NCBI GenBank assembly: GCA_016793535.1 | Contig: JAEUHA010000393.1 | Location: forward strand, 1-38,356 | Length of the DNA stretch: 38,356 bases | DNA from: Opitutaceae bacterium | GTDB lineage: Bacteria; Verrucomicrobiota; Verrucomicrobiia; Opitutales; Opitutaceae | Reading direction: 5' to 3' | The notes under the pieces: model-generated | Seen by the model: only the letters and a program-made list of their open reading frames with translations | Database searches by the model: none | What the model was told of the DNA's origin: nothing | Position numbers and translations under genes: made by a program | Shown here: piece after piece, positions 1-36,719 of the stretch | Numbering within the stretch: position 1 is the first letter of the stretch | How the letters are laid out: each line of letters starts with the position of its first letter

Positions 1-305
1 TCAACTGGTTCGGCAGCCGCCAGGCCGAGGCCGCGATCGACAACGGGCTGCGTCGTCGTGTCACGGGCCGCTTCAAGGCTGATTTCTCCCAGCGCTTCGT
101 CGTCAACACCGCGATCGGCCTCAAGCGCAAGATCGCCGGGCGCGACTGGAACTTCCGCCTCAACGTGAACAACCTGCTCGACGACCAGAAGGACGAGCGG
201 ATCGTTTACAGCGGCACCGTCGGCACGTCGACCGCTGCTCCCGCGCGTTCCCTCGTTTACTACAATCCGCGCACCTGGCAGTTCTCCGTCGGCACGAAGT
301 TCTGA
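1..305 (+). CDS. TonB-dependent receptor, C-terminal fragment
   Basis: The frame beginning at base 3 is open from the window edge to TGA at 303-305, giving about 100 residues. It contains alternating beta-strand segments, the motif FRLNVNNLLDDQ (the 'N-N-L-F/L-D' turn typical of the last strands of TonB-dependent receptor barrels) and ends in the outer-membrane signature ...WQFSVGTKF with a terminal Phe recognised by the BAM machinery. In this lineage such receptors import glycans, siderophores or other ligands across the outer membrane; the substrate cannot be told from this fragment. The plug and most of the barrel lie upstream of the window. It is transcribed toward a convergent small membrane protein, with the heptad inverted repeat between them. 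Confidence 0.85.
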   Translation, partial: NWFGSRQAEAAIDNGLRRRVTGRFKADFSQRFVVNTAIGLKRKIAGRDWNFRLNVNNLLDDQKDERIVYSGTVGTSTAAPARSLVYYNPRTWQFSVGTKF

Positions 306-361
306 ACGGCGGAGCCGCCTGTCTCGCGACGGTGGAACGCGCCGCCCGGCGTTGGCCGCTT

Positions 362-376
362 TCCGGCTTAGCCGGA
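362..376. other. Short perfect inverted repeat downstream of receptor
   Basis: TCCGGC-TTA-GCCGGA, a 6-bp perfect stem with a 3-nt loop, lies 57 bases after the receptor stop and just before the first heptad array. A second small stem GGCGG-AG-CCGCC directly follows the stop codon region near 307-318. Neither is followed by a T tract, so a role in transcription termination is possible but not shown. Confidence 0.4.
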
Positions 377-383
377 GGCATGC

Positions 384-548
384 AGTTGAAAGTTGAAGGT
401 TGAAAGCTGAAAGTTCCGAACCAGGCGGTAGGAACAATGGGTAGGCAGACGGAAGGCGAATGCACTTTTCGGTGCGAGCTGCCGGCTGGCAGCGATTCCA
501 GCCCGCGCCCGGGTCCGTCTCTCAACTCTCAACCCTCAACTCTCAACT
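384..548. repeat. Heptad inverted-repeat element, copy 1
   Basis: The left arm (384-411) is four head-to-tail 7-bp units of consensus RGTTGAR (AGTTGAA, AGTTGAA, GGTTGAA, AGCTGAA). The right arm (521-548) is four units of the reverse complement (CTCAACT, CTCAACC, CTCAACT, CTCAACT). Read inward, each arm has its G-initial unit third. Position 7 is A in the left arm and G in the right, so pairing in a minus-strand transcript would use G-U wobbles, while a plus-strand transcript would have A-C mismatches. The spacer of about 109 bp carries its own hairpins (GCTGCC-GGCT-GGCAGC at 478-493; GCAC...GTGC at 462-475). It fills the gap between the convergent receptor and the 562-1062 gene. No ORF is credible here. 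Confidence 0.85.
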
Positions 549-561
549 GCATGAGCCCGCC

Positions 562-1062
562 TCAGGCGGCGGGTTTGAGGGTGGGCAAGCGTTCCCGTTC
601 CGCTGCGGCCAGGGTCTGGACGTAGCGGGTGAAGTCCTCGTCTTCGCCCTGCAGGAGTTCCGGCAGCGCCTCGATGAAATCGGGGCGGCGGACCCATTCG
701 CGGATGTAGTCCTCCCACGACTTCCAGAGCCGGCGGGTCTGCTTGTCCATTTTCTCCTCGTAGACCAGCAGGTAGGCGCGTTCGAAGAGGGACACGAGAA
801 TGCCGAAGATCGCGAAGCGCCGCTCGCCCTGCTCGGGCGTGAGGTCGCGGCGGCCGCCGTCGCGTCGGAGCAGTTGCAGGTCGGAGTTGTCGAGGACGAG
901 CTTGAGGAACTCGCGGTACTCGTCCGAGAGCCGCTGGTAGATCTCCTCCTGCTCGTTCAGCCGGTTCTTGCGTTGTTCGAGGATGAACACGATGAGGGCG
1001 AACGGCAGGCCGACCACCGTGACGACGTAGCTCAGGAGCTCCCACGTTTCACGCATCTGCAT
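562..1062 (-). CDS. Small single-span membrane protein of unknown function
   Basis: The protein is 166 residues when started at the Met pair MQMRETW; the frame extends 16 codons further upstream (to 1110), but that stretch is polar and places the membrane segment unusually late. An N-terminal hydrophobic span (about residues 9-28, SYVVTVVGLPFALIVFI) is followed by a charged helical cytoplasmic part (EQRKNRLNEQEEIYQRLSDE onward), with a second weakly hydrophobic helix around FAIFGILVSLFERAYLLV. This layout occurs in many uncharacterised bacterial proteins; I do not recognise a named domain or active-site motif. It is divergent from rnhB and convergent with the receptor fragment. A role in membrane signalling would be a guess. 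Confidence 0.75.
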   Translation of the reverse strand: MQMRETWELLSYVVTVVGLPFALIVFILEQRKNRLNEQEEIYQRLSDEYREFLKLVLDNSDLQLLRRDGGRRDLTPEQGERRFAIFGILVSLFERAYLLVYEEKMDKQTRRLWKSWEDYIREWVRRPDFIEALPELLQGEDEDFTRYVQTLAAAERERLPTLKPAA

Positions 1063-1160
1063 GGGGCAACGGAACGCATCCGGGGAGAAATTGCCACTCG
1101 GGTCGCGCAAGGCGCGCGCTTGCCACGACCCCCGGGGTGGACTTGATCGGGTCCCGACCT

Positions 1161-1916
1161 ATGAAGCGCCGCCAGTTGCGTGGCTTCGACCTGAAGCAAA
1201 TCCAGGGAGTGACCCACCTGATCGGCGTCGATGAGGTGGGGCGCGGGGCGTTTGCCGGACCCGTGGTGGCGGCGGCGGTGGTGGTGTCGCGGGACTTTTT
1301 GGAGAGCCGCTGGGCCGTGGCGAAGAGCGGACGCGTGAACGACTCCAAGGCGCTGACCGCGGAGCAGCGCGAGGAGTTGTGGGTCGAGTTCGAGGAACTC
1401 GCCGCGGCCGGCAGCATCCATGCGCAACACGGGCTGGCGACGGTGGACGAGATTCAGGAGTTGAACATCCTCGGGGCGACGAAACTGGCGATGCGCCGCG
1501 CGCTGGAGGCCCTGTACCCGCCGGAGGCGTTCGAACGCCAGCGGGAGGAACCCGATTTGTTTTCCAGCTTCGAGGAGCGGCGCAGTTTCCAGCCGGCGGT
1601 GTCGGCCCGGGTGATCGTTGACGGGCTGCCGCTGCGCGGTTTCCCGTATCCGCATGCGGCCTTTGTGCACGGGGATGCCCGTTCGCTCTGCATCGCGATG
1701 GCGTCGATCATCGCGAAAGTGACCCGTGACCGGATGATGGTGGAATTCGAGGCGAAGTATCCCGGCTACGGTTTCGCGCGCCACAAGGGGTACGGCACCG
1801 ACGAGCACCGGGAGGCCGTGCTGCGCCTGGGCCGCTGCCAGGAACATCGCGAGGCGTTCCTGCGCAAGCTGCTCGCGGTGCGCGTCGATCCGGCGCAGAT
1901 GAACCTGCTTGAATAA
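1161..1916 (+). CDS. rnhB: Ribonuclease HII
   Basis: RNase HII cleaves the RNA strand of RNA-DNA hybrids and starts removal of misincorporated ribonucleotides in the cytoplasm. The signature IGVDEVGRGAFAGPVVAAA near the N-terminus supplies the catalytic Asp-Glu pair; NDSKAL follows at about residue 60. The VIVDG strand and the SIIAKVTRDR helix carry the other metal-binding aspartates, and YGFARHKGYGT closes the domain. At 251 residues it is longer than the usual 190-220, because of a roughly 35-residue insert (around PPEAFERQREEPDLFSSFEE) before the VIVDG strand. I chose ATG 1161; GTG 1137 is in frame 8 codons upstream. Its last codons overlap the TTG start of the downstream histidine kinase by 8 bases, suggesting coupled translation. 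Confidence 0.95.
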   Translation: MKRRQLRGFDLKQIQGVTHLIGVDEVGRGAFAGPVVAAAVVVSRDFLESRWAVAKSGRVNDSKALTAEQREELWVEFEELAAAGSIHAQHGLATVDEIQELNILGATKLAMRRALEALYPPEAFERQREEPDLFSSFEERRSFQPAVSARVIVDGLPLRGFPYPHAAFVHGDARSLCIAMASIIAKVTRDRMMVEFEAKYPGYGFARHKGYGTDEHREAVLRLGRCQEHREAFLRKLLAVRVDPAQMNLLE

Positions 1917-3105
1917 ACCCCGCAAGACCGTGGCTGGAAAAAAGAACTCCTCGCTCGACCGCGTGCTCGGCCGGCTCGACACGCTGGATTCGGTCAACCT
2001 GGCGAACCTGGTGCAGCGGCTGGCGCGGGAACGCGCGGTCTTCGAGGAGATTTTCAACACGCTGCAGGAGGGCATCCTGGTCGTCCGCGACGACGGTGCG
2101 ATCGACTATGCCAACGCCGCGGCGTACCGGCTGATCGGCCTCGGCGGCGACGATCTCGCGGGGCAGACGTTGTGGCGGCTCGTCCCGGGACTGCGCAACT
2201 CGCTCGGCGCGGTGCTCGACCACGAATCGGGCGGCGGCGTGGCGCCGGTCGTGGCGCGGGAGTTCGAACTCACCTATCCGGAGCCCCGGCTGGTGCGGTT
2301 GTACATGGTGCCGTTTCGTCTGGCCGGGTCGACCCCCGCGCGGCGGTTTGCCGTGATCCTGTCCGACGTCACAAAGGAGAAGCAGTCGACCGAAGAGCGA
2401 ATCGAGAACGAACGCACGTCCTCCATCCTGCTGCTGGCCGCCGGGGTGGCCCACGAACTCGGCAATCCGCTCAACTCCCTGACGATTCACCTGCAGCTGA
2501 TGGAGCGGAAGCTGAAGAAACTGAAGTCGCAGAAGGACGTCGATTCCCTCGCGGAGTCCGTGCGGATCTGCCGCGACGAAGTGACCCGGCTCGACGGCAT
2601 CATCAGCAATTTCCTCGAGGCGATCCGGCCGCGTCCGCCGGACCTGGCGGAGACGGACTTGAACGACGTGCTCACCGAGGTGCTGCGCTTCCAGCATCGG
2701 GAGCTGGCGGACCGCGGCATCGAGGTCGAGGCGGAGACGCTGGACATCCCGCTCGTGCTTGCGGACCGGAACCAGATCAAGCAGGTCTTCTTCAATCTCA
2801 CCAAGAACGCCATGGAGGCGATGCGGCCCGGCGGAAAATTGAAGATCAAGTCGCGGGCAGACGATGATTCCGTGTACCTGTTGTTCGCCGACACCGGCAG
2901 TGGCATCAAACAGGAGGACCTGATGCGGCTGTTCCAGCCCTACCAGACCACGAAATCGGGCGACCACGGGCTCGGCCTCATGATCGCGCAGCGCATCATG
3001 CGCGAGCATGGCGGGCAGATCGGCCTGGAGAGCAAGGAAGGCATCGGCACGATCGTGACCCTGCAGTTCCCGCGGAAGGACCGGCGGGTGCGGATGCTGC
3101 AGTGA
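1909..3105 (+). CDS. NtrB-like cytoplasmic PAS sensor histidine kinase
   Basis: The protein is 398 residues with no membrane segment or signal peptide. A PAS domain spans about residues 42-160 ([20 protein letters not shown]). The dimerisation/phosphoacceptor helix has [11 protein letters not shown] with His182 as the likely phosphorylated residue. The ATPase domain shows the N box ([14 protein letters not shown], Asn296 and Asn300), DTGSGI (G1) and a GLGL motif (G2). This matches the NtrB/AtoS class, which usually partners with sigma-54-dependent NtrC-type regulators. The nearest such regulator is 2.6 kb downstream (5678-7057), with a second kinase at 8924-10300. The TTG start at 1909 overlaps the rnhB stop; GTG 1930 is an alternative. 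The stimulus is unknown. Confidence 0.9.
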
Positions 3106-3115
3106 CGGGCGGATG

Positions 3116-3234
3116 AGTTGAGAGTTGAAAGCTGAGAGTTGAGAGACGGCGTAACTCGGTAGCACCGTCGGCCTGCAAGCGTTGCCTGCCCCTCCTGGAT
3201 CGGTCTCTCAACTCTCAACCCTCAACTCTCAACT
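3116..3234. repeat. Heptad inverted-repeat element, copy 2
   Basis: Left arm 3116-3143 is four 7-bp units AGTTGAG, AGTTGAA, AGCTGAG, AGTTGAG, followed by AGACGG. Right arm 3207-3234 is CTCAACT, CTCAACC, CTCAACT, CTCAACT, the same units in the same order as the right arm of copy 1; with its flanks (3202-3235) it is identical to copy 1 over about 33 bp. The 63-bp spacer has an inner GACGG...CCGTC pairing. The element sits between the convergent kinase (ends 3105) and lipoprotein (ends 3245) genes, starting 10 bp after one stop and ending 10 bp before the other. Confidence 0.87.
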
Positions 3235-3244
3235 GATCCGGTCC

Positions 3245-3973
3245 TCACCTCTGCGCGTTCTCGAATTCCTTGCGGAGCGACGCGGCGAGGATGTTTTTCA
3301 CCACGACGACCTGTTGCTCGCGTTTGCCGCCGGTGCGGACGGCGAGCTTGAGCGGGATCTCGTCGCTGGTCACGCCGAGCTGGGAGATCATGGGGTCGAG
3401 CAGGGCCTTCTCGCCGGGAGCGATCGTGAGCTTGGGCGGACGGACCGCGAAGTTGCCGAGGTCCGAATTGACCTCGGTCACCTCGAGCTCGATCGGTTCG
3501 GTGCCCTTGTTTTCGAACAGGACGCGGAGCGTGACCGGCGGCATCGGACTGCCCGCGGCGCGGCGGGCCCGGGCCTGCCGGATGTAGTCCTGCATGGCTT
3601 CCTTCTGCTCTTCTTCCGAGTCGCCGTAGCCGCCAATGTTGTAAACTTCGGTAAAAGCACCGACGTCATCGCGGCGCTTCCGGCGTTGGTCGTCGTAGAT
3701 GTTGTCGTCGGGGTTGAGCCGCTTGCCGCGCCCGCCCGGTCCGCGGTCGCCGCGATCGAAGCCGCGGCTCACGGTGACCAGCGCGGCCACCTTGCCCTCG
3801 AGAAACGTGCTTTCGCCGCGCATGGCGACCGGGCGTTCCACGGGCTGGCGGGTCGCCTCTTCCATCATCAAGTCGCGGGGGGTGGCCCCGGTGCCGCAGC
3901 CCGCGGCGGCCAGCAGGCCGGTTAGGAGAGCAGCGATCGAGAGGATCTGGGGAGAGTACGCCGGGAGCTTCAT
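3245..3973 (-). CDS. Exported lipoprotein with C-terminal Ig-like (DUF1573-like) domain
   Basis: The protein is 242 residues from the Met beginning MKLPAYSPQ. A signal peptide (ILSIAALLTGLLAAAGC) ends in a lipobox, so Cys at about residue 25 should be acylated; the frame extends 45 codons upstream, but only this start puts the signal peptide at the N-terminus. The middle is charged, with a Gly/Arg/Asp-rich stretch (DRGDRGPGGRGKRLNPDDN). The C-terminal about 90 residues (VTLRVLFENKGTEPIELEV... to KNILAASLRKE) look like a beta-sandwich of the DUF1573/HYDIN type: 'fall-off' strands with NKGTEPI followed by IAPGEKALLDP. It is divergent from the ECF sigma operon, so it may belong to the same envelope response, but this rests only on position. 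Confidence 0.8.
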   Translation of the reverse strand: MKLPAYSPQILSIAALLTGLLAAAGCGTGATPRDLMMEEATRQPVERPVAMRGESTFLEGKVAALVTVSRGFDRGDRGPGGRGKRLNPDDNIYDDQRRKRRDDVGAFTEVYNIGGYGDSEEEQKEAMQDYIRQARARRAAGSPMPPVTLRVLFENKGTEPIELEVTEVNSDLGNFAVRPPKLTIAPGEKALLDPMISQLGVTSDEIPLKLAVRTGGKREQQVVVVKNILAASLRKEFENAQR

Positions 3974-3974
3974 G

Positions 3975-3990
3975 GGAACGTCGTTCGACG
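3975..3990. promoter_or_regulatory. Inverted repeat in the lipoprotein / ECF sigma divergent region
   Basis: GGAAC (3975-3979), which resembles the -35 element of many ECF promoters, overlaps a perfect inverted repeat CGTCG-TT-CGACG (3979-3990). It lies directly next to the lipoprotein start codon and 103 bp upstream of the sigma-factor start. No convincing -10 partner is seen at the usual spacing, so this is only a weak candidate control site. The rest of the 119-bp divergent gap shows nothing clear. Confidence 0.25.
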
Positions 3991-4092
3991 CCAAGCGGAG
4001 GCGAAGGTTGCGGCTAAGGCAAGGACGGGCATGGCAACCCTGAATCTTTCTGGCCTTTCCTGCGTCTTGCTGCTCACACGAATGCGCTCCGC

Positions 4093-4641
4093 ATGGAATC
4101 CACTTCACCGACTGCCCTGGCCGACCTTGTGCGGCGGGCTCAAAAGGGCGACGAGGCCGCCCAGCGGGAACTTGTGGTCAGTTACCAGCACCGGGTGGCG
4201 GGCTTCGTTTACGCCATGACCGGCCGAAGCGATTACGTCGAAGATCTGTCGCAGCAGGTGTTCATCAAGATGATCCGCGCGATCGATCGCCTGCAGGCTC
4301 CGGCGCAGTTCGAGTCGTGGCTCTTCCGGCTCGCGCGCAACACCTGCATCGACCAGCTGCGGCGGCAGAAGCTGCGCCGGATCTTCCTTCCGTTCGGCGA
4401 GGAGCACGAAAACATTCCGGAACCGCCGGGAGCGGTGGATTCGGAGGAGCTCGACGCCCTGCAGCATGCCCTGGCCCAACTGCGCCCGCAGGACCGCGCG
4501 CTGCTTGCCTTGGTGCAGGAAGGGCGTAGTCATGCGGAAATCGCTGAAACGCTCGAAACCAGTGTCGCCGCGGTGAAGGCTCGCCTCCATCGCGCCCGGG
4601 AACACCTTCGCGAGCATTACCAACCTCCCCATGAAACCTGA
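4093..4641 (+). CDS. RNA polymerase sigma factor, ECF subfamily
   Basis: The protein is 182 residues, usual for extracytoplasmic-function sigma factors. Region 2 spans about residues 8-80: LVRRAQKGDEAAQRELV, then YVEDLSQQVFIKMIRAIDRL and FESWLFRLARNTCIDQLRRQ, which cover core binding and -10 recognition. Region 4 spans about 125-175: LQHALAQLRPQDRALLALV followed by the helix-turn-helix HAEIAETLETSVAAVKARLHRARE for -35 recognition. The stop overlaps the start of the next gene by 11 bp, which fits a sigma/anti-sigma pair. Such factors are normally held by the neighbouring membrane protein and released by an envelope or oxidative signal. Confidence 0.93.
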   Translation: MESTSPTALADLVRRAQKGDEAAQRELVVSYQHRVAGFVYAMTGRSDYVEDLSQQVFIKMIRAIDRLQAPAQFESWLFRLARNTCIDQLRRQKLRRIFLPFGEEHENIPEPPGAVDSEELDALQHALAQLRPQDRALLALVQEGRSHAEIAETLETSVAAVKARLHRAREHLREHYQPPHET

Positions 4642-4999
4642 AGAACACGCCTGGCAGGAACTCCAGCGGCGCGCCTCGGCGCAGCTCCGCGGTGGATTTG
4701 CGGATCGCGTGGTGCGCACCGCGCGAGGCCCCCAGGAGGATTCGTGGCGCGCCCTCTTCTCCGTCGGCGCACGCCAGCTGCGGCCGGGTTTTGCCGAACG
4801 GGTGCTGCGGGCCGCGCGCGCCGCCGCGGAAATGCCGTCCCTGGCCAGCCAATTCGCGCTCAGTGCCGCCACCGCAGCGGTGTGTCTCGGCGCCGTGCTG
4901 TTCGTCCACCATCAGACGGTCGAGGCAGCGGATGAACGGAACCTCGCGGAATGGCAGGCGATCGTGGCGGTCGCCGAGGACGATGCGGCGGGCCTATGA
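4631..4999 (+). CDS. Putative anti-sigma membrane protein with duplicated motif
   Basis: The protein is 122 residues, starting 11 bp inside the ECF sigma gene. The N-terminal cytoplasmic part contains a clear internal duplication: QLRGGFADRVVRTARG (about residues 18-33) and QLRPGFAERVLRAARA (about 51-66). A membrane segment (FALSAATAAVCLGAVLFV, about residues 77-95) leaves a short acidic C-terminal tail outside. Overlap with the sigma gene, size and topology suggest an anti-sigma factor, but I see no zinc-binding HxxxCxxC motif or other named anti-sigma domain. The duplicated helix might be the sigma-binding part. It ends in ATGA, overlapping the next start. Confidence 0.75.
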   Translation: MKPEEHAWQELQRRASAQLRGGFADRVVRTARGPQEDSWRALFSVGARQLRPGFAERVLRAARAAAEMPSLASQFALSAATAAVCLGAVLFVHHQTVEAADERNLAEWQAIVAVAEDDAAGL

Positions 5000-5625
5000 C
5001 GCAGCGGGTCTTCGTTGCCCTTCTGACGGTCGGGGTGTTTCTCGCCGGCTATTTTGCGCGGGTCTGGACCGACCGGCGTGAGGCGGTGCCGGCTGCTCCG
5101 GCAGCGCTCGCCAAGGAATATGTTCGCGCCGACACGAAGTCGACGAACAAGACGAAGTCCGACAGCCAACTCGACCGCGCCAAGCTGGTCGCGGAGATCC
5201 AGAAGCTCCGGCCGCACATCGACGCTTACAGCACCCAGCTGGATGAGATTCAGGCCGAATTTGATCGCGAGTTCCTGCACTTGCTCACGCTCCCGCAGCG
5301 GGACAAGTTTGCCGCCAATCAGAAGAAACGGGCGGAGCGCGACGCGAAGCGCCAGGCGGATCGCACGCCGCTCTCCGACGAGGATATCCAGCGGGCGAAG
5401 GACCGGCCGCTCACTTCGATCTACTGGTATGTCGTCGTCACTCCGCATCTCGAGTGGATGACAAAGGAGTACGGACTCGATGCGAATCAGCAGACGCAGG
5501 TTCGGGCCCTGCTTGCCCTGCGCCGCAACAAGTTCATCGCCCTGGTCGATTCCACCCAGCATCCGTCGATTCGGCTGAGCAAGCTGGCGCCGTTGATCGA
5601 GCGGATGGGAACGCCGGCGAAATAG
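4996..5625 (+). CDS. Membrane-anchored helical envelope protein of unknown function
   Basis: The protein is 209 residues from the ATG overlapping the previous stop (ATGA at 4996-4999); the frame opens earlier, but this start gives an N-terminal anchor or uncleaved signal (VFVALLTVGVFLAGYFARVW). The rest is highly charged and helical: KLVAEIQKLRPHIDAYSTQL, FDREFLHLLTLPQRDKFAAN, a Lys/Arg/Asp-rich linker and a C-terminal helical domain (YGLDANQQTQVRALLALRRN). The 'LTLPQRDKF' and 'LDANQQTQVRALL' segments recall heavy-metal-sensor and Spy/CpxP-type periplasmic proteins. This is a resemblance only, with no diagnostic LTxxQ pair assured. As third gene of the sigma operon it may be a sensing or target protein on the outer face of the membrane. 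Confidence 0.75.
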   Translation: MTQRVFVALLTVGVFLAGYFARVWTDRREAVPAAPAALAKEYVRADTKSTNKTKSDSQLDRAKLVAEIQKLRPHIDAYSTQLDEIQAEFDREFLHLLTLPQRDKFAANQKKRAERDAKRQADRTPLSDEDIQRAKDRPLTSIYWYVVVTPHLEWMTKEYGLDANQQTQVRALLALRRNKFIALVDSTQHPSIRLSKLAPLIERMGTPAK

Positions 5626-35539: not shown

Positions 35540-36592
35540 ATGAGCAACGGCGTTACGATGAAGGTGATCGCAGCGCAGGCCGGCGTCACGCAGGCCACGG
35601 TCTCGATGTGCCTGGCCAACAACCCGCGGATTCCGCCCGCGACCCGGGAGCGGATTCAGGCGCTGGCGCGAAAACTCAACTACCAGCCGAATCCGTACGT
35701 TTCGACCCTGATGCGGATCCGGCGGCAGGGAAAGCCGCTCAACGAGAAGCCGGCCCTGGCGCTCGTCTGTGCCCAGCGCACGGCGAGCGGCTGGCGCGAT
35801 CATCCCGCCCCGACGATCCGGCACATGCGGGAGGGCGCCCTGGAACGCGCCACCCTGCGCGGGTACCGCGCGCAGGAATTCTGGCTGCACCGCGACGGCA
35901 TGTCGAACGAGCGGTTCTCCGCCATGCTCCACGCGCGTGGCATCCAGGGGCTGCTGATCAGCCCGCTCGCGGAGGGTGATCCGAATCCGAACCTGCGCTG
36001 GGACTATTTCGCGACGGTGTGCCTGAGCGTGCCGCTGCCATCGCTCACGATCACGACGGTCTGCAACGACCACTACTTCTCGAGCCTGCAGATCATGCGC
36101 GAGTGCCACCAGCGGGGTTACCGGCGTCCGGGCCTGGTCCTGCGGCGGGCGCACCAGCTCCGGTTTCAAGGTCGCTGGGAGGCGGGCTACCTGCTGGGCG
36201 GCGAGATGCTGCCGGGCATGCGACTGGCGAAGCCGCTCTACGGCGACGATTGGGCCGAGGGGGGCCGTCTCCTCGGCTGGTTGAAGCGGGAGAAGCCCGA
36301 CGTGATCATCACGCCGGCGGCCGATGTGATTGCCGGGACGCTGCACGCCGCCGGCTGGCGGATTCCCGATGACATCGGACTCGCGTTGCTCGCCTGTCCG
36401 GAACGCGGCGATCCCCACAGCGGCGTCTACCAGAACGGGCGGTTGATCGGTGCCCTCGCAATCGACACCCTCATCAGCCGGGTGGAGCGCCACGAGCGCG
36501 GCCTCCCGGAGCAGGCCACGACCCTGATGGTGGAGGGGCAATGGAACGAAGGGCGGACGTTGCCGCCGCGCGCCGTGGGCGCACGGGGTTGA
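35540..36592 (+). CDS. LacI-family transcriptional regulator
   Basis: The protein is 350 residues. The N-terminal helix-turn-helix is MKVIAAQAGVTQATVSMCLANNPRIPPATRERIQALARKL (about residues 7-46), in which TQATVSMCLAN matches the LacI recognition-helix pattern. A hinge follows (NYQPNPYVSTLMRIRRQGKP, less standard than the usual L-A hinge). The periplasmic-binding-protein-like effector domain runs to the end: IQGLLISPL, ITTVCNDHYFSSLQIM, RRPGLVLRR and PDVIITPAADVIAGTLHAAG. The ligand is probably a sugar. It is divergent from a TonB-dependent receptor and its stop codon lies inside the first unit of the downstream heptad repeat. It may control the receptor and itself. Confidence 0.94.
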   Translation: MSNGVTMKVIAAQAGVTQATVSMCLANNPRIPPATRERIQALARKLNYQPNPYVSTLMRIRRQGKPLNEKPALALVCAQRTASGWRDHPAPTIRHMREGALERATLRGYRAQEFWLHRDGMSNERFSAMLHARGIQGLLISPLAEGDPNPNLRWDYFATVCLSVPLPSLTITTVCNDHYFSSLQIMRECHQRGYRRPGLVLRRAHQLRFQGRWEAGYLLGGEMLPGMRLAKPLYGDDWAEGGRLLGWLKREKPDVIITPAADVIAGTLHAAGWRIPDDIGLALLACPERGDPHSGVYQNGRLIGALAIDTLISRVERHERGLPEQATTLMVEGQWNEGRTLPPRAVGARG

Positions 36593-36707
36593 ACGTTGAA
36601 GGTTGAAAGGTGAAAGACCGACCCGGATCGATGGGTGACCAGGGAGTCTTCGCCTGCGAGGCGCCTCAACTCCCAGCGTCTTTCAACCTGCGACTTTCAC
36701 CTATCAA
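36587..36707. repeat. Heptad inverted-repeat element, copy 3, with nested hairpin
   Basis: Left arm 36587-36614: GGTTGAA, CGTTGAA, GGTTGAA, AGGTGAA, then AGACCG. Right arm 36680-36707 complements to AGTTGAT, AGGTGAA, AGTCGCA, GGTTGAA, then AGACG. Between them lies a two-level stem: GGGAGT (36642-36647) with ACTCCC (36669-36674), enclosing CGCCT-GCG-AGGCG (36651-36663). The first unit contains the LacI-gene stop codon (TGA at 36590-36592). The element fills the gap to the convergent araH. Confidence 0.82.
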
Positions 36708-36719
36708 CTGCGGCGCGCC

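Follow-up and report, generated by a model that had tools for sequence, protein, structure and literature searches.

The gaps between genes in the stretch of DNA analysed here (the window, 38,356 nucleotides, contig C350 of the host assembly) raise the question of how inverted arrays of 7-bp units came to lie there and what keeps them in place. An earlier note, made from the letters alone, had described three such elements, and in their location and arms the description holds: each consists of a pair of inverted arms with four 7-bp units apiece, and the window contains 13 matches to three heptads (at most three mismatches) against 0.01 expected from 100 dinucleotide shuffles. Chance cannot account for these arrays. 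No Rfam family exceeds its gathering score within the window. The parts of the three elements are as follows (the classes are defined below).

367-371, no strand: left flank of copy 1, CTTAG (class I consensus CTNAG), read from the sequence
371-383, plus strand: outer terminal inverted repeat of copy 1, GCCGGAGGCATGC, common to class I copies
384-411, plus strand: left arm of copy 1, AGTTGAA AGTTGAA GGTTGAA AGCTGAA (A-type)
412-520, no strand: spacer of copy 1, with homologues in 13 further copies of the sampled genome (class I)
521-548, minus strand: right arm of copy 1, four heptads, G-type
549-560, minus strand: right outer terminal inverted repeat of copy 1, GCATGAGCCCGC (class I)
561-565, no strand: right flank of copy 1, CTCAG, within which the minus-strand gene at 562-1110 has its stop codon (562-564)
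3116-3143, plus strand: left arm of copy 2, AGTTGAG AGTTGAA AGCTGAG AGTTGAG
3144-3206, no strand: spacer of copy 2, with edges AGACGG and CGGTCT, unrelated to all other spacers
3207-3234, minus strand: right arm of copy 2, four heptads
36587-36614, plus strand: left arm of copy 3, A-type, the first heptad containing the neighbouring gene's TGA
36615-36681, no strand: spacer of copy 3, with edges AGACCG and GTCT, a single occurrence in the genome
36682-36709, minus strand: right arm of copy 3, degenerate, TTCAACC TGCGACT TTCACCT ATCAACT

Copies 1 and 2 have a 33-bp stretch in common in their right arms, GTCTCTCAACTCTCAACCCTCAACTCTCAACTG, as had been observed. AGACSG follows most arms, as had been stated, but the left arm of copy 1 is followed by AGTTCCG instead. 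The LacI-family gene at 35540-36592 has its TGA stop supplied by the first heptad of copy 3 (36587-36592).

A dispersed family with a fixed arm design

The host assembly is a 6.6-Mb draft of 702 contigs, 86% complete. A genome-wide search for three heptads at two mismatches or fewer yields 503 raw matches, a figure that is not an element count because overlapping registers are counted repeatedly and the reversed-pattern control is partly the same repeat. From 80 stretches read together with the window (~0.85 Mb, mostly picked for holding an array) we extracted 70 paired elements. The proposed family of dispersed arrays does exist: the host carries well over a hundred arms, with inverted pairing in nearly all, and elements are dispersed by the hundred in the intergenic DNA of the host and of some relatives.

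Four units is the modal number in both arms (left 46/69, right 44/69), and the slot consensus is AGTTGAR-AGTTGAR-GGTTGAR-AGTTGAR followed by AGACCG, with the third slot fixed as GGTTGAR or AGCTGAG across the genome-wide copies. The final R of the unit is mostly all A or all G within one arm, and its state is correlated between the two arms of an element (r = 0.83). The two arms of a pair run in the order GTTGA...TCAAC rather than the reverse at 70:3 in the host genome. One locus (L218:3158-8143) holds four lone right-hand arms in 5 kb, each 3-14 bp upstream of a plus-strand gene.

Two classes of element

The three copies had been taken to share one design, and here the description fails, since copy 1 is of another kind, a 14-copy family with a shared spacer of ~110 bp and extra inverted ends. 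Of the 54 elements first extracted whose spacers were long enough for comparison, 14 share a spacer of ~100-113 bp (class I, including the window element at 384-548), and the remaining 40 spacers have no mutual similarity (class II, including 3116-3234 and 36587-36709). The extra inverted ends of class I read GCCGGAGGCATGC ... GCATGAGCCCGGC, with CTNAG at most outer borders, and the TNA inside CTNAG matches in about five copies with both flanks (read by eye). These ends, borders and matches are as expected of a young MITE, and a target-site duplication in class I is only hinted at. Class II elements consist of arms and ~62-bp spacers, of which nothing but a fading AGACCGAACC/AGACCGATCC edge is kept; the flanks of copy 2, where we looked for a duplication, contain none. 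Terminal inverted repeats, many dispersed copies and empty sites in relatives are all present, as in MITEs, and the homologous interior that marks a MITE is found in the 14 class I copies and is absent from the 40 class II spacers.

The spacers had been described as structured, but those of class II fold like shuffled sequence (mean z -0.15, n = 39). None of 43 spacers has a second copy anywhere in the draft genome, and we therefore reject captured genomic DNA as their source. Pairwise similarity among spacers is 13.18 against 12.70 in mononucleotide shuffles (sd 0.09), a weak excess that may leave room for a distant common origin. A long autonomous element bounded by such ends was likewise rejected, as none was seen in the sampled stretches and the 372-bp inner stretch of one locus (L063) contains no obvious enzyme by eye. 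Insertion in the middle of an already existing palindrome, of which the copy 2 flanks gave a hint, is not general (flank complementarity 2.76 versus 2.65 of 8). At L058:5734-5933 and L067:6167-6360, near-spacerless, shortened class I copies are found within class II elements or immediately next to them, which suggests insertions that are nested and internally deleted.

Placement relative to genes

With genes called by a purpose-made codon-usage caller, all three window elements lie between convergent genes and occupy three of the five convergent junctions there, in agreement with the placement originally given. Across the sampled stretches, that placement is not exclusive: the 58 element-bearing junctions comprise 20 convergent, 34 tandem and 4 divergent ones, and convergent-only placement arose by chance from there being just three copies in the window. 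Relative to all junctions of each kind (convergent 20/80, tandem 34/389, divergent 4/85), elements favour convergent junctions (odds ratio 3.8, P = 4 × 10-5), the stretches being chosen for arrays in a way that inflates overall density and should not favour one orientation. The spread is therefore not blind to gene orientation. The deficit at divergent junctions has, taken alone, a Fisher P of 0.08 (4/58), and elements adjoin gene 3' edges in preference to 5' edges (78:42 versus a background of 475:517, P = 5 × 10-4).

The elements nearly fill their gaps (median residual ~25 bp), the median gap minus the element being 23-26 bp where the genes are convergent or tandem, versus 87-107 bp at such junctions without an element. 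At the host's own loci arms nearly always point inward from the gene, the 5' end of an array being the one closer to the gene edge (115:8). The same polarity is seen in lone arms, both upstream of start codons and after stops, and some elements sit between co-oriented genes, 0-20 bp upstream of start codons. The placement rule is thus one of adjoining gene edges while avoiding promoters, and is not specific to convergent genes.

Gain and decay in related genomes

In many genomes of the same genus, the genes flanking copy 2 are adjacent across a 12-30-bp gap without an element, and for other elements the corresponding gaps in relatives measure 0 to about 50 bp, also without an element. Because relatives show such empty sites, whole elements are gained, and the gain is recent. 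The junctions bearing elements include some that we take to be ilvN-ilvC, hom-lysC and fliP-fliQ, the names being our reading of the sequences. We rejected the spacer as ancestral intergenic DNA to which arms were added, since the 63-bp spacer of copy 2 is longer than the entire 12-30-bp gap of the relatives.

Two relatives, G006 and G008, share orthologous elements between flanking genes that are 85-97% identical. Over six pairs, the arms are identical at 358/399 positions (90%) and the spacers at 246/331 (74%), and gap columns make up 3% of the arms versus 14% of the spacers [for identity and gaps alike, P about 5 × 10-8; the comparative base is a draft genome, six orthologous pairs and an array-enriched sample]. 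One of the pairs has had its spacer mostly replaced, with the arms still alike. The arms outlast the spacers in orthologous elements, and are therefore constrained or homogenised after insertion; gene conversion among copies could be an alternative cause of this conservation.

Distribution and other heptad words

The four-heptad string is found in 22 of 57 relatives (two mismatches or fewer) and in 55 of 388 genomes of the phylum (one mismatch or fewer). Its occurrence is patchy, with rich and empty species within one genus, and the same arm string occurs in other genera of the host's family. Among the matches listed in an exact scan of named genomes are Bacteroidota, Verrucomicrobiota, Cyanobacteria, Fibrobacterota, Planctomycetota, Acidobacteriota, Chloroflexota and others; a few of these cross-phylum matches are possibly binning contaminants. 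At the listed loci of other phyla, pairs run GTTGA-then-TCAAC at 32:0, and the array's 5' end is nearer the gene edge at 90:20 (lone arms 48:12, paired arms 42:8).

A second dispersed heptad family, AAACCGG, is present in G006, G008 and G018 (e.g. G006:C110:21840-21874), with variants AATTCGG, AATGCGG and AGACCGG and with ~120-280 raw matches per genome compared with 1-8 for a control pattern. AAACCGG arrays are absent from the window's genome. One orthologous gap contains, depending on the relative, AGTTGAG, AGCTGAG or AAACCGG, or else a purine-rich inverted repeat unrelated to them. Among the lags that are not multiples of 3, 7 comes top in gene-selected stretches of relatives, and with GTTGA arrays masked the period-7 excess is small in both the own-genome and the relatives' sets. 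Many heptad words are found across many phyla. A single architecture spanning several phyla, with a 7-bp step, about four units, inward-facing arms and a word swapped between lineages at shared sites, whose boundary marks coevolving readers or a 7-nt copying enzyme would maintain, strikes us as quite improbable. In one relative (L305, G015), the gap orthologous to L072:1171-1253 holds a GGAG/CCTCC-rich inverted repeat with a roughly 9-bp step in the place of the heptad elements of other genomes.

Reading of the arms

Four letters of the heptad hardly ever change, namely G2, T4, G5 and A6 (.99,.95,.96 and.97), and positions 1, 3 and 7 vary (A1.75, T3.84). Because conservation is concentrated in this way, the arm letters appear to be read as sequence, favouring this over selection for a hairpin. 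Partner arms show no covariation by identity within a type (G-type partners 0.849, shuffled partners 0.850), and the duplex energy of true partners is no better than that of shuffled partners of the same type (-40.6 vs -41.7 kcal/mol). We reject a stem maintained through compensatory change, as neither measure gives a sign of it. Strong compensatory evolution is excluded, and weak selection on pairing is compatible with these values because long stems tolerate mismatches.

A heptad-reading protein, as had been suggested for these arrays, is possible by analogy with omega/ParB of pSM19035, which reads contiguous heptads and needs at least four units for full ParA activation (PMC9499535). The heptad word differs among lineages at one site, and a single conserved reader would on this ground seem unlikely unless it coevolves. 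The omega-repressor family was above the cut-off in 0 of 57 genomes, a search that covers the omega family among the RHH families and a host draft that is 86% complete. A RAYT/Y1 transposase was rejected as the mover: among relatives, Y1/RAYT gene counts do not track array number (G008, among the array-richest, has 1 Y1_Tnp gene, and G003, with few arrays, has 23), and no heptads lie beside the Y1_Tnp genes at the 5 loci examined. Neither of these searches brought up a protein that binds or moves the elements.

Relation to known repeats

A literature search for papers quoting the heptad string itself returned none that was relevant. The earlier note considered a 7-bp period unusual, which it is not, since heptamer intergenic repeats are known from Xanthomonas, Nostoc, Calothrix and Beggiatoaceae (PMC4692102, PMC4679880). 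The GGGAATC arrays of Xanthomonas prefer four units, include 70-75 inverted pairs in which each strand carries one array (Rehm 2015, PMC4692102), lie near ORF edges with the sense strand past stops and the antisense ahead of starts, are rare between divergent ORFs and in coding DNA, and vary among close relatives. The host elements resemble these GGGAATC and GGGGA(C/T)T repeats of Xanthomonas and Nostoc (PMC4692102) in being a non-coding, tandem 7-bp unit dispersed genome-wide with about four units preferred, and resemble those of Xanthomonas further in their inverted pairs, strand rule at gene edges, few divergent sites (4/58) and variation among relatives. They differ in an unrelated word, nearly universal pairing, a ~60-bp spacer, a fixed slot pattern, an AGACCG inner edge and convergent enrichment. 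The four-unit preference in Xanthomonas was linked to G-quadruplexes (PMC4692102), whereas 0 of 138 host arms have even four GG tracts. Thus the family shares the Xanthomonas-type architecture but falls outside the G-quadruplex repeat class, and as the same layout occurs here with a unit of no such potential, G-quadruplexes are not the general cause of the four-unit preference. The inverted four-heptad layout was known already; the other word, the near-universal pairing and the lack of G-quadruplex potential are new.

Other known repeats share part of these properties. The TAACTGA repeats of Beggiatoaceae and cyanobacteria (PMC4679880) and the cyanobacterial heptanucleotide STRR are likewise intergenic heptamers, patchy among lineages and with indels in 7-nt steps, but the Beggiatoaceae arrays are direct, lie mostly just upstream of starts and include scarcely any inverted pairs (MacGregor 2015, PMC4679880). 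ERIC, NEMIS/Correia, RUP and other bacterial MITEs, some of which have stop codons in all frames, are also 100-170-bp intergenic palindromes with empty sites (PMC2229807); unlike them, the host elements have arms of direct heptad repeats, and class II has mutually unrelated spacers and no clear target duplication. The parS heptads of pSM19035, contiguous 7-bp units in direct or inverted order bound by the ribbon-helix-helix omega/ParB (PMC9499535), are few plasmid sites of another sequence over promoters, and the omega family exceeds its cut-off in none of the 57 relatives. Both REP/BIME with RAYT and the host elements are extragenic, but Y1_Tnp genes have no heptads beside them and their counts are not correlated with the arrays. 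REP/BIME are extragenic palindromes that avoid divergent promoters, as the host elements do.

Explanations of the elements

Our reading, held tentatively and with somewhat less than even confidence, is that of a dispersed MITE-like intergenic element with heptad-built ends that are read by a protein. The comparisons show that elements are dispersed, that they enter short intergenic gaps whole, with two arms and a spacer, that they keep to a given placement and polarity, and that afterwards the arms are conserved and the spacer drifts or is replaced. The heptads would form a sequence-specific binding array, read cooperatively and unit by unit by a candidate protein that moves or preserves the element, possibly also bringing its two facing arms together; we infer such protein-read ends of a mobile-like element as the mechanism. 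Effects on neighbouring genes, through a co-transcribed hairpin or the separation of adjacent transcripts, would be secondary, and this would account for the avoidance of promoters and coding regions and for the preference for 3' ends. A possible but less probable explanation makes these effects primary, with a co-transcribed stem of ~30 bp and a free loop of ~60 nt, which would shield or process 3' ends and keep neighbouring transcripts apart, as has been proposed for REP, ERIC and NEMIS, so that the stem and not its letters matters. A placement typical of gaps that are transcribed and untranslated, the preference for 3' edges, the depletion of divergent gaps, the strong folding of copy 2 on both strands (z -6.9 and -8.8) and the nearly constant order of the arms, among the listed matches of other phyla as in the host, are consistent with it, but partners match no better than shuffles of the same type (which a 28-bp stem would tolerate), conservation within the heptad is uneven, and lone arms of the same polarity stand before starts as well as past stops. 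We think it rather unlikely that the heptads are neutral or selfish repeats, born of slippage or carried by MITEs and tolerated in gaps with neither a reader nor a function; the variety of words and phyla, the patchiness among sister species and the slippage hypothesis for heptamer abundance (cited in PMC4692102) point that way, whereas a slot pattern fixed across elements and genera is not expected from free slippage, and the arms outlive the spacers at orthologous sites.

The two remaining explanations concern the ends of genes. The earlier note had proposed a bidirectional intrinsic terminator specialised for convergent genes; the convergent enrichment agrees with this, but only 20 of 58 junctions are convergent, T-rich tails occur in only 4 of 55 elements tested, window positions 1-5000 have no terminator-like match at an element, and elements lie before the start codons of co-oriented genes, including the presumed fliP-fliQ, so that termination as the main role is very improbable. 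It is harder still to believe that the elements are three-frame stop cassettes, in which the TGA of each 7-bp unit closes all frames from either side. About a dozen sampled flanking genes, including that left of copy 3, were called as ending inside an arm, with overlaps mostly of 6, 13, 20 and 27 bp, but the stop slot of variant units in the host genome is not biased to other stop codons (TAA 3 versus CGA 5, TGG 5 and AGC 10) and the AAACCGG dialect has no stop. We therefore reject the three-frame stop as a selected trait, and the stop codons in the heptads are probably a side effect, one that keeps insertions at gene ends from doing harm.

Reports of heptameric intergenic repeats go back decades and assign them no function, and the present family offers a tractable comparative system, with rich and empty sister species, arms that outlast their spacers and one site where the word has been swapped. 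In L281 and L290, another palindromic repeat, GGGCGGGTCTTTGACCCGCCC, occupies the gap between hom-like and lysC-like genes where the host has a heptad element.
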